From Actinospica robiniae DSM 44927 (GTDB taxonomy: Bacteria > Actinomycetota > Actinomycetes > Streptomycetales > Catenulisporaceae): a stretch of 64,000 nucleotides of DNA. Below, piece by piece: positions 48,861 to 55,423 of this stretch. Each line of letters starts with the position of its first letter. Position 1 is the stretch's first letter. The position numbers were made by a program, and so were the translations under genes. Below the pieces are notes generated by a model, which did no database searches, was not told where the DNA came from, and saw nothing but the letters and a program-made list of their open reading frames with translations. The stretch is from the NCBI RefSeq assembly GCF_000504285.1, contig NZ_KI632511.1, positions 7,484,154 to 7,548,153 of the forward strand, given 5' to 3'.

Positions 48861-49232
48861 ATGGATGAGACGACGCCCGTATCTCCGGCCTTGGACCCGG
48901 CGATTGCAGCGCAGTTGAGACGAAACACCCAGGGACTCCTCCCGGCGGTCGTGCAGCAGTACGACAGCGGCGAGGTCCTCATGCTGGCCTGGATGGACGA
49001 CGAGGCGCTGCGCCGCACGCTGACCACCGGCCGGGCCACCTACTGGTCGCGCAGCCGCGCCGAATACTGGGTCAAGGGGGCGACTTCCGGCAACTTCCAG
49101 GCGGTCAAGTCGGTCTCCCTGGACTGCGACGGCGACACCGTGCTGGTCAAGGTCGACCAGTCCGGCCCGGCCTGCCACACCGGGACGCACACCTGTTTCG
49201 ACGGCCGGGAGCTGCCGCTCGGCGAGGAGTGA
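48861..49232 (+). CDS. hisI: phosphoribosyl-AMP cyclohydrolase HisI
   Basis: 123 residues, the single-domain form without HisE. It opens the adenine ring of PR-AMP in histidine synthesis. [24 protein letters not shown] near 26-49, [18 protein letters not shown] near 66, and the zinc/Mg site [22 protein letters not shown] near 90-110 are seen. It is 15.8 kb from the main his operon and next to trpE. A GACAAT (48848-48853) 7 nt before the ATG suggests leaderless transcription. Confidence 0.96.
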
Positions 49233-51770: not shown

Positions 51771-52130
51771 ATGTCGCAGGTGATCGAAGAGACTCAGGCG
51801 GAGAAGGGCTCCTCGCCCCTGGCGAAGGTCGCCGGCGCCGGCATGGCCATGATGGGCGCCTCGTCGCTGCCGACGATCGAGGAGCACCACATCGACCACG
51901 GGCACGCTCCGGCCCGCACCTGGGCCTGCCTCATCTCCGGTCTGGGCTGGCTCGCCGGCGGCGTCGCCTTCCCGTTCCACATCTGGTCCGTGGTCATCAT
52001 CGGCGGCGTCCTGCAGATCATCGCCATCGTCGTCAACGTGGCCCTGAACGGCGCCGGCCTCGGCGCCAAGTCCAACAGCGACTGGGCCGCGGCCAAGGCC
52101 GAGGCGAAGGCCGCCCGCGTCGCCGCCTGA
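51771..52130 (+). CDS. HGxxPAAW-like small membrane protein
   Basis: 119 residues from ATG 51771, with TAGGAG 10 nt upstream. HHIDHGHAPARTWACLISGLGW near residue 38 matches the HGxxPAAW motif family of actinobacteria with changes (Ala-Arg-Thr-Trp). Two membrane segments (about 48-66 and 71-92) follow, then an Ala/Lys-rich tail. The family often lies between trpE and trpC; function unknown. Confidence 0.75.
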   Translation: MSQVIEETQAEKGSSPLAKVAGAGMAMMGASSLPTIEEHHIDHGHAPARTWACLISGLGWLAGGVAFPFHIWSVVIIGGVLQIIAIVVNVALNGAGLGAKSNSDWAAAKAEAKAARVAA

Positions 52131-52290: not shown

Positions 52291-53097
52291 GTGAACGTGC
52301 TCGAGGAGATCATCGAGGGTGTCCGCGCCGACCTGGCTGAGCGCCAGGCCGTCACCCCGCTCGAGGAGCTCAAGTCCCGGGCCCGGACGCAGCCGTCCGC
52401 CAAGGACGGCGTCCGCGCCCTGCGCGGCGAGGGCGTCGCGGTGATCGCCGAGGTCAAGCGGTCGAGCCCGTCCAAGGGCGCGCTGGCCGCGATCGCCGAC
52501 CCGGCCGCACTGGCGGCGGACTACGAGCTCGGCGGCGCCAGCGTCATCAGTGTGCTGACCGAGCAGCGCCGGTTCGGCGGCTCGCTGCAGGACCTCAAGG
52601 ACGTGCGCGCCCGGGTGGACATCCCGGTGCTGCGCAAGGACTTCATCGTCTCCAGCTACCAGCTGTGGGAGGCCCGCGCCAACGGCGCCGACCTCGCCCT
52701 GCTCATCGTCGCCGCGCTCGGCCAGGACGCGCTGGTCTCGCTGATCGAGCGGGCCGAGTCGATCGGCCTGACCCCGCTGGTCGAGGTGCACTCCGAGGAG
52801 GAGATCGACCGGGCGCTGGACGCCGGCGCCAAGATCATCGGCGTCAACGCGCGCGACCTCAAGACCCTCCAGGTGGACCGGGACACCTTCGCCCGGCTGG
52901 CCCCCCGCATCCCCGACTCGGTGGTGCGCGTGGCCGAGTCCGGCGTGCGCGGCCCGCACGACCTGATCGCCTACGCCAACGCCGGCGCGGACGCCGTGCT
53001 GGTCGGCGAGTCCCTGGTCACCGGCCGGGACCCGCGCTCCTGCGTGGCCGACCTGGTCGCCGCCGGAGCCCACCCGGCCATGCGCCGCGGCCGCTGA
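52291..53097 (+). CDS. trpC: indole-3-glycerol-phosphate synthase TrpC
   Basis: 268-residue TIM barrel from GTG 52291, preceded by GAGGGGA; the 19 codons before it are excluded because homologues begin at [17 protein letters not shown]. It closes the indole ring. [15 protein letters not shown] near 52 holds the catalytic Lys, VLRKDFIV near 112 the second Lys, [12 protein letters not shown] near 182 and [12 protein letters not shown] near 211 the phosphate site. It is followed by the leader-like ORF and trpBA. Confidence 0.96.
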
Positions 53098-53120
53098 GCC
53101 GGCGGATCGCCGGCAGGCAC

Positions 53121-53126
53121 TAGGAT
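53121..53126 (+). promoter_or_regulatory. leaderless promoter of the trpBA unit
   Basis: -10 box TAGGAT, 6 nt before the GTG of the short Trp-rich ORF, 23 bp after the trpC stop. No clear -35 is seen. Confidence 0.45.
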
Positions 53127-53132
53127 CGCCCC

Positions 53133-53228
53133 GTGAGCACGTCGACCTCTCCCCGCGCCGCCGCCCGTCGGCGGCCGTGGTGGCGCCACGCGCCGGCGGG
53201 TCGCCGATGGCGGGCCGCGGCCGCGTAG
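53133..53228 (+). CDS. putative Trp leader peptide upstream of trpB
   Basis: 31 codons from GTG to TAG, encoding an Arg/Ala-rich peptide with three Trp, two in tandem (PWWRHAP, then RRW). The -10 box TAGGAT ends 6 nt before the GTG, so translation probably begins at the 5' end of a leaderless mRNA. The tandem TGG codons (53178-53183) straddle the stem and loop of a possible hairpin CGTGG-TGGCG-CCACG (53176-53190); a second hairpin GGCAG-CCCG-CTGCC lies near 53260, before the trpB ribosome site. This layout suggests attenuation by ribosome stalling at low Trp-tRNA. The Streptomyces gene trpM/trpX holds the same place but is longer. Confidence 0.55.
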   Translation: MSTSTSPRAAARRRPWWRHAPAGRRWRAAAA

Positions 53229-53305
53229 CCGCCCTCGTCCAGGGTGTCGCGCGGCAGCCCGCTGCCCGGTTCACGCATGGCGATTCCTGAGGAGCTCGCA
53301 GTCCG

Positions 53306-54616
<1,311 letters not shown>

Positions 54617-54619
54617 ACC

Positions 54620-55423
54620 GTGAGCAAGCTCTCTGATGTGCTGGCCGCGGCCAAGGCCGAGGACCGCGCGGCGCTGATCGGCTACCTGCCGGCCGGCTAC
54701 CCCTCGGTGGACGGCTCGATCGCGGCCCTGCGCGCCATGATCGAGGGCGGCGTCGACATCGTCGAGGTCGGATTGCCGTATTCGGACCCGCAGATGGACG
54801 GCCCGGTGATCCAGAAGGCCGTGCAGGCCGCGCTCGACGCCGGGGTGACCACCCTGGACGTGCTGCGCGTGGTCGAGGGCGCGGCCGCCACCGGCGCGCC
54901 GACCCTGGTGATGAGCTACTGGAACCCGATCGAGCGCTTCGGCGTGGACCGCTTCGCCGCCGAGCTGAGCGCGGCCGGGGGAGCGGGCACCATCCTGCCC
55001 GACCTGATCCCGGAGGAGGCGGACGAGTGGATCGCCGCCGCCGACGCGCACGGGCTCGACCGGGTCTTCCTGGTCGCCCAGACCTCCACCTCGGAGCGGA
55101 TCGCGCTGACCACGGACGTGTGCCGGGGCTTCGTCTACGCCGCCTCGCTGATGGGCGTCACCGGCACCCGGGAGGCCGTGAGCGGCTCGGCCAAGGACCT
55201 GGTCGCGCGCACCCGCGAGCAGACCGGCCTGCCGGTCTGCGTCGGCCTCGGCGTCTCCAACGGCGTCCAGGCGGCCGAGGTGGCCGCGTTCGCGGACGGG
55301 GTGATCGTCGGCTCGGCCTTCGTGCGCCGGCTGATCGAGGCGCCGGACGAGGCGGCCGGTCTGGCCGGGGTGCGCGCGCTGGCCGAGGAGCTGGCCGAGG
55401 CTGTCAGGAAGGGCCGACGGTGA
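54620..55423 (+). CDS. trpA: tryptophan synthase alpha chain TrpA
   Basis: 267-residue TIM barrel. It splits indole-3-glycerol phosphate and passes indole to TrpB. The catalytic Glu and Asp are in VDIVEVGLPYSDPQMDGPVIQ near residues 50-63; FVYAASLMGVTGTREAVSG near 172 and VCVGLGVSNGVQ near 206 form the phosphate site. GTG start. Confidence 0.96.
   Translation: MSKLSDVLAAAKAEDRAALIGYLPAGYPSVDGSIAALRAMIEGGVDIVEVGLPYSDPQMDGPVIQKAVQAALDAGVTTLDVLRVVEGAAATGAPTLVMSYWNPIERFGVDRFAAELSAAGGAGTILPDLIPEEADEWIAAADAHGLDRVFLVAQTSTSERIALTTDVCRGFVYAASLMGVTGTREAVSGSAKDLVARTREQTGLPVCVGLGVSNGVQAAEVAAFADGVIVGSAFVRRLIEAPDEAAGLAGVRALAEELAEAVRKGRR

Follow-up and report, generated by a model that had tools for sequence, protein, structure and literature searches.

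A short leader ORF between trpC and trpB of Actinospica robiniae DSM 44927 ends close behind the codon pair CGA-TGG (Arg-Trp), and comparison of actinobacterial genome sequences shows selection on both the six nucleotides CGATGG and their reading frame in four family-level groups. We consider this ORF to be probably a ribosome-mediated, Trp-codon-dependent attenuator of trpBA, which would set the expression of these genes by the supply of charged Trp-tRNA. That the conserved feature itself is real appears to us, from the comparisons below, beyond doubt.

The window, that is, the whole 64,000-nt stretch of DNA analysed here, carries, in this order, hisI and trpE, then a gene for a membrane protein and a short one resembling HGxxPAAW genes, and after these trpC, the leader ORF, trpB and trpA; the names of hisI and the membrane-protein gene are our assumption, made by inspection. 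On the forward strand, trpC (indole-3-glycerol phosphate synthase) occupies positions 52291-53097 with its TGA stop at 53095-53097 (NCBIfam NF001369, 447.2 bits against a cut-off of 329), trpB, the proposed regulated gene, 53306-54616 with a GAGGAG ribosome-binding site at 53289-53294 (TIGR00263, 590.4 bits against 392.45), and trpA, the next gene of the unit, 54620-55423 (TIGR00262, 204.7 bits against 102.35). The short ORF between the gene that follows trpE and trpC (51771-52127) reached 17.3 bits (E 0.0036) with the NCBIfam HGxxPAAW model, less than its cut-off of 33 bits. As the earlier note on this DNA had read it, the leader ORF (53133-53228, forward strand) starts with the GTG at 53133, 6 nt behind a -10-like TAGGAT box (53121-53126), and runs for 31 codons to a TAG stop at 53226-53228, the ATG of trpB (53306) following after 77 nt. 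Direct reading also confirmed its three TGG codons, two in tandem (TGGTGG, 53178-53183; codons 53178-53180 and 53181-53183) and a third (53208-53210) within CGATGG(C) at 53205-53211, where it follows the rare Arg codon CGA. Behind the trpC stop and ahead of the -10 box, an inverted repeat, GCCGGCG-GAT-CGCCGGC (53098-53114), is visible by eye, which is possibly a terminator of trpC read-through, or an operator; a different inverted repeat, GCCGG-GTTT-CCGGC, was seen by eye at the same place in a related locus (L003).

The leader ORF stands out within its surroundings. When both strands of the 64-kb window were scanned for a TANNNT box 5-9 nt before ATG or GTG, two leaderless-like ORFs of 8-60 codons were found, and the leader ORF was the only one with a WW pair or three Trp codons. 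No such ORF precedes trpE: the two short ORFs (5-60 codons) between position 49100 and the trpE start contain no Trp codon, in agreement with the earlier note. Control exerted on trpBA and not on trpE would fit both this finding and the conserved position of the leader.

Conservation was evaluated first within the family of the window (Actinospica/Catenulispora), here labelled f1; f2, f3 and f19 denote the other family-level groups. While trpB was present in all 60 relatives examined, the leader ORF was found in the trpC-trpB gap of 14/14 f1 genomes, the window's own included, and a search with the peptide profile matched all 14 beside trpB with E below 1e-12. The peptide segment ARRRPWWRxxPAxRRW is identical in the 14 sequences, while a codon-by-codon comparison shows many synonymous positions to vary. 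The codon before the third Trp is an exception, being CGA in 14/14, whereas elsewhere in the f1 ORFs CGA makes up 5 of the 82 codons at conserved Arg columns. The suggestion in the earlier note that the Trp content may be chance is thus not upheld, since a three-Trp ORF recurs in every same-family genome. Searched against 394 genomes of the class, the f1 peptide profile gave only background outside f1 (best E 1.1e-4), and the 29 non-own loci retrieved for these background matches contained neither trpB nor trpC. In a Catenulispora-type locus (L013) the leader ORF is extended in frame to more than 100 codons, apparently via an insertion, with a 24-residue core and the stop retained; in an Actinospica durhamensis-like locus (L002) about 160 nt with inverted ends (GTGTCTTC...GAAGACAC) are inserted between the trpC stop (1135) and the leader start, and the -10 box and leader ORF behind the insertion are intact.

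The trpC-trpB gaps of further actinobacteria were then compared, each gap being delimited by the trpC stop and the beginning of the BLAST match to trpB, and counted if at least 90 nt long. We take f2 to be Streptomyces, on the strength of its TrpM match, and f19 to be probably the Streptosporangiaceae of GTDB. An in-frame CGATGG within a short ORF was found in 14/14 f1 gaps, in 33/33 f2 gaps (35 of the 45 f2 genomes were used, two of them lacking a usable trpC/trpB pair), in the single f3 gap (1/1) and in 43/55 f19 gaps (the raw count of 44/55 includes L228, judged spurious, and some of the motif-less gaps are those of an early-starting trpB with little room), compared with 0/14 gaps of other families; the locus L080, where CGG encodes the Arg of Arg-Trp and CGATGG is absent, was scored as a miss. 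Altogether, 92 of 103 gaps hold CGATGG where an order-1 Markov model expects 12.9, a count of related sequences and not of independent events. Seven of the 98 CGATGG occurrences were dropped by eye, namely second matches in L025, L084, L087, L198, L200 and L202 and the sole match of L228. Among the remaining 91 loci the Arg-Trp frame is open with an upstream ATG or GTG in 90, against 27 and 19 for the other two frames, and the base after CGATGG, which was not selected for, is C in about 98%. Since the loci were chosen for the motif, the presence of CGA in 91/91 and the invariance of the six bases hold by construction; the gap counts and the comparison with other Arg codons are free of this effect. 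In the latter, CGA accounts for 33 of 3336 Arg codons (1%) in the flanking trpC and trpB genes, and in the f2 ORFs it stands before Trp in 33/33 and in 8 of 290 positions in other conserved Arg columns.

The leader peptides are otherwise unrelated between families, with lengths from 7 to 160-odd residues. The f3 peptide is MLLRERWRARRTSR; f19 comprises a class 19a, with peptides such as MLEPLRERWRA and MPQPRERWRAYPLYH, and a class 19b, with peptides such as MTTTANLLHPGHRWR, MRALRTTRTAVLTGRWS and MPGHRWS. Comparison of the f1 and f2 peptide profiles aligned only three columns (RWR), with a probability of 2.0. Other Trp residues are scarce outside f1 (0 of 12 residues in f3, 0 of 194 in 19a, 9 of 613 in 19b and 2 of 2429 in f2), while the tandem TGG is present in 14/14 f1 sequences and only there. 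The earlier note had proposed to check the conservation of the WW pair and the ORF, and would have been refuted had the ORF or its Trp codons not been conserved; both are kept in 14/14 same-family genomes, but by the sequences compared the widest-kept part of the feature is the third Trp codon within CGATGG and not the WW pair. In f19 the motif behaves as a single copy in cis: all six exact matches to the 19b motif in 61 genomes lie ahead of trpB. Allowing up to two mismatches gave 26 matches, 12 just before trpB and 14 elsewhere; the latter were rejected as further sites because they are within chance, a reversed control pattern giving 32.

The sequences suggest two ways in which the ORF is started. 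Relative to the leader start, a TANNNT box stands 5-9 nt upstream in 12/14 f1, 1/1 f3, 14/14 class 19a, 13/33 f2 and 0/29 class 19b loci, compared with 2 of 328 control ATG/GTG codons further down the same gaps. In 23/29 class 19b loci the trpC stop and the first start codon are instead at most 6 nt apart, an arrangement shared by 4/33 f2 loci, 1/14 class 19a loci and none of f1. Because two different arrangements, a -10 box or a start on the trpC stop, serve the same small ORF, these counts suggest that being translated is what matters. In S. lividans the -10 consensus is TAnnnT and leaderless transcripts are frequent (PMC8079986). The earlier note had called a leaderless leader peptide an unusual design; this does not hold, as seven are described in S. 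lividans (TrpL1, TrpL2, LeuL1, LeuL2, IlvL, MetL and ThrL; PMC8079986) and leaderless polycysteine ORFs are reported to act as attenuators in mycobacteria (Canestrari 2020, as cited in PMC13236596).

For the window, RNA folding predicts a pair of hairpins that abut each other, both on the forward strand, as the earlier note had proposed. Hairpin A (53165-53210) holds all three TGG codons, and CGAUGG closes its 3' arm; hairpin B (53211-53268) lies where relatives have a conserved hairpin, and an alternative fold from 53208 includes the UGG. When 53204-53300 is folded alone, the third TGG is drawn into the second hairpin, so that A and B are predicted to be able to compete for CCGAUGG. The predicted stability does not exceed what composition gives: the window hairpin fold has a z of -0.90 against dinucleotide shuffles (41/200 at least as stable) and 53204-53300 a z of -0.05 (86/200), and covariation of hairpin A was not seen. 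The search of 53000-53400 for terminator-like sites gave none, and between the motif and trpB the longest T-run is 1 to 5 across the groups, with no U-tract. A known RNA family (T-box, riboswitch or Rfam leader) was rejected, since no Rfam covariance model reached its gathering score in the window or in 15 related loci.

A strongly covarying hairpin after the ORF is shown by comparison in part of f19, namely class 19b. Here, in 21/29 loci, the distance from the C of CGATGG to the first base of the best predicted stem is exactly 11 nt, which puts this base at the G of the usual TAG; the class count includes two loci of one genus (L095 and L190) in which a long frame follows Arg-Trp and the stems are weak. 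The stem score at this offset is 27.0, against 15.6 (s.d. 0.83) with shuffled 3' sequence (z 13.8; maximum of 100 null means, 17.75). Because variable-length loops break the 19b alignment, covariation was counted loop-free: 9/9 pairs show changes on both sides and 92.7% of cells are paired, a percentage inflated by the choice of 3' arms for best complementarity, for which the stem-score shuffle allows. Double-change cells number 42 against 9.8 in shuffles, 0/500 shuffles reach any of the five measures, and sliding the partner by 1-3 columns lowers the pairing to 28-60%. The stem signal falls to z 5.3 in 19a and to z 5.0 and 4.6 in f1, and the f2 hairpin is not significant (z 1.9, with at least one of 100 null means higher); the offsets tested had been chosen from a prior stem survey. 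With RNAalifold, MAFFT alignments of f1 and 19a yielded short stems, and those of 19b and f2 yielded no consensus. In the Catenulispora hairpin the UGG lies inside the 5' arm, and the 3' arm varies yet stays complementary, mostly via G-U pairs. The stretch from leader to trpB in f1 is C-rich and G-poor, with a median C-G skew of 0.44 in 12 sequences against 0.03 in trpC; that of the window, with 20 C and 19 G, is not skewed as in the other f1 members. A Rho loading site in the C-rich stretch is a candidate that we regard only as a lead.

Taken together, the attenuator interpretation of the earlier note is partly supported by these comparisons. Transcription would start at or near the GTG behind TAGGAT. 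When Trp-tRNA is short, the ribosome would slow at CGA-UGG; standing at the UGG, only a few nucleotides ahead of the next hairpin, it would cover the 5' arm of that hairpin, and transcription into trpBA, or survival of the mRNA, would continue. With enough Trp the ribosome would run on to the nearby stop, which lies 1 to 29 codons after the UGG in the leader loci, and leave, upon which the hairpin would form and trpBA expression would drop. Termination without a U-tract, Rho or decay are candidates for the off step. Such a device would be of the simplest attenuator type, requiring no antiterminator. Among the findings that count against it are the lack of a terminator-like site in 53000-53400, the window hairpins, which are no better than shuffles, the f2 hairpin, which is not significant, and the conservation of the peptide itself in f1 and f2, for which a pure codon sensor has no need. 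The plasmid complementation of an S. coelicolor trpM deletion, and the statement that trpBA are expressed independently of trpM (PMC5036795), likewise count against it.

The tRNA complement of the genome offers a possible role for the fixed CGA. There are 53 tRNA genes by Rfam, among which ARAGORN identified Arg anticodons ACG, CCG, CCT and TCT and one tRNA-Trp. Because no tRNA-Arg with a TCG anticodon is among these loci, CGA would be read only by tRNA-Arg ACG, through wobble of inosine with A. This single reader should make the CGA-UGG pair slow and sensitive, and we infer that CGA renders the codon that follows it Trp-sensitive. In the Salmonella his leader, CGA is among the slow Arg codons and CGA pairs are highly de-attenuating (PMC4046918), and decoding in the A site varies with the codons in the P and E sites (PMC11805395). 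A more far-reaching version, which we put forward tentatively and hold to be rather doubtful, is that CGA-UGG is itself the sensor: an inosine-wobble tRNA-Arg on CGA in the P site would make the decoding of one Trp codon sensitive enough to Trp-tRNA charging for it to replace a run of them, the cassette would be old in Streptomycetales and f19 with two interchangeable starts, and TrpM would be its leader peptide, with constraints gained later.

The Streptomyces gene trpM/trpX (SCO2038; NCBIfam NF047334) is, like the window ORF, a small ORF between trpC and trpB with Arg-Trp near its end; unlike it, it is described as coding for a protein, about 64 codons long, that modulates Trp synthesis and development (PMC5036795, PMC7042404). 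All 33 f2 ORFs scanned match NF047334, with 23 invariant columns and CGATGG in 33/33. The window ORF did not match this model at E up to 1, nor did any of 10 f1 peptides, and homology of the f1 peptide with TrpM was rejected on this basis and because the two profiles share RWR alone. A trpM deletion in S. coelicolor grows slowly on minimal medium and is cured by Trp, Ser or indole, and also by a plasmid carrying the gene with its upstream region (PMC5036795). Its authors state, as data not shown, that trpBA expression is independent of trpM (PMC5036795). The word stem 'attenuat' is absent from PMC7042404, and its one listed occurrence in PMC5036795 concerns Bacillus. That the deletion can be complemented in trans points to a protein function in Streptomyces, and the CGATGG fixed in 33/33 f2 ORFs points to an additional function in cis; a protein function and a cis leader function may both be present, in f1 as in f2. 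In the locus L023 an inverted repeat of MITE-like type (GGGTGTGTCCGCGAAGTCGC ... GCGACTTCACGGACACACCC) lies between trpM and trpB.

Several other leaders resemble the one described here. Streptomyces TrpL1 (before trpE, MFAHSTRNWWWTAHPAAH) and TrpL2 (before trpS, MMTRTCTQLWRAA) have the leaderless start that is predicted here, and are likewise short ORFs with one or more Trp codons followed by hairpins, and TrpL2 shares in addition a single Trp, Arg-Ala after it and the lack of a U-tract (PMC8079986); they differ in lying ahead of trpE and trpS and not trpBA, and in having no Arg before Trp. The text seen of PMC8079986 counts 8 leader peptides, none ahead of trpBA, and trpM/trpX is absent from its main text. 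The classical trp attenuators of Streptomyces, Corynebacterium and enterics also combine a leader ORF containing Trp codons with hairpins before trp genes, and one is predicted ahead of trpB2A in C. diphtheriae (PMC1262725); they use double or triple UGG and a GC-rich terminator followed by poly-U, whereas the leaders studied here lack a U-tract and mostly have a single UGG, preceded by a fixed CGA. Mycobacterial leaderless polycysteine uORFs are similar in their leaderless start, here a predicted one, in regulatory codons near the end and in having no clear terminator (PMC4633059, PMC1262725), and differ in sensing cysteine, in using a run of codons instead of one pair and in being reported to act by translation attenuation (PMC13236596). 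The open literature searched, which excludes subscription papers, contained no leader or attenuator ahead of trpBA in Streptomyces, Catenulispora or Streptosporangiaceae. With TrpL1 and TrpL2 of S. lividans, the predicted C. diphtheriae trpB2A attenuator and the mycobacterial cysteine ORFs as its nearest known counterparts, a trpBA leader with CGA-UGG would be a new variant among these.

The same observations bear on other explanations. The ORF could encode a free small protein that modulates Trp metabolism in trans, as proposed for TrpM, with conservation acting at the protein level. The NF047334 matches of all 33 f2 ORFs with their 23 invariant columns, the constancy of f1 residues despite many synonymous changes, the complementation of the trpM deletion from a plasmid (PMC5036795) and the trans-acting leader peptide peTrpL of Sinorhizobium (PMC7298713) all agree with such a protein. 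We nevertheless regard it as unlikely to be the explanation, for the peptides of f1, f2, f3 and f19 have only Arg-Trp in common, f19 ORFs shrink to MPGHRWS, and a demand for Arg in a protein does not explain CGA. No residue pair but that same Arg-Trp, close to the C terminus, is kept across families, and it could mark an arrest peptide, whose nascent chain would stall the ribosome on free tryptophan or another ligand in the manner of TnaC and so uncover or hide downstream sequence. Described arrest peptides need a longer motif, and between families almost no other part of the peptide is kept; as the synonymous fixity of CGA also favours decoding over the residue, we think this distinctly improbable.

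An equally small probability attaches, in our judgement, to CGAUGGC being a signal at the RNA level, recognised by a protein, an RNase or base pairing, with the ORF secondary. The motif is fixed at its nucleotides and the next base is nearly always C, as such a signal would have it, but the Arg-Trp frame is kept open with a start in all but one of the 91 loci, and the Rfam search of the window and the 15 loci was negative. One form of this idea, in which the AUG within the motif starts an overlapping ORF coupled to trpB, was rejected because the ends of such frames are scattered from hundreds of nucleotides before the trpB start to more than 1000 nt after it. Chance, finally, would have the Trp codons arise from a random Arg/Trp-rich frame in GC-rich DNA and the hairpins from composition. 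The window hairpins taken alone do fall within the shuffle range, but conservation across genera and families and the covariation in 19b leave chance hardly credible as an account of the whole: it is already refuted for the ORF and CGATGG, though not for the window's own hairpins.

An attenuator of this kind would give Streptomyces-like bacteria a concrete cis-regulator for trpBA, one that can be tested by single-codon changes. It would also allow another reading of the trpM phenotypes, as deleting trpM also removes the leader, its Trp codon and possibly the trpBA promoter. If the CGA-UGG pair is the sensor, codon context would turn one codon into an amino-acid gauge, and this, if true, would help to find attenuators with neither codon runs nor U-tract terminators, which present searches miss.
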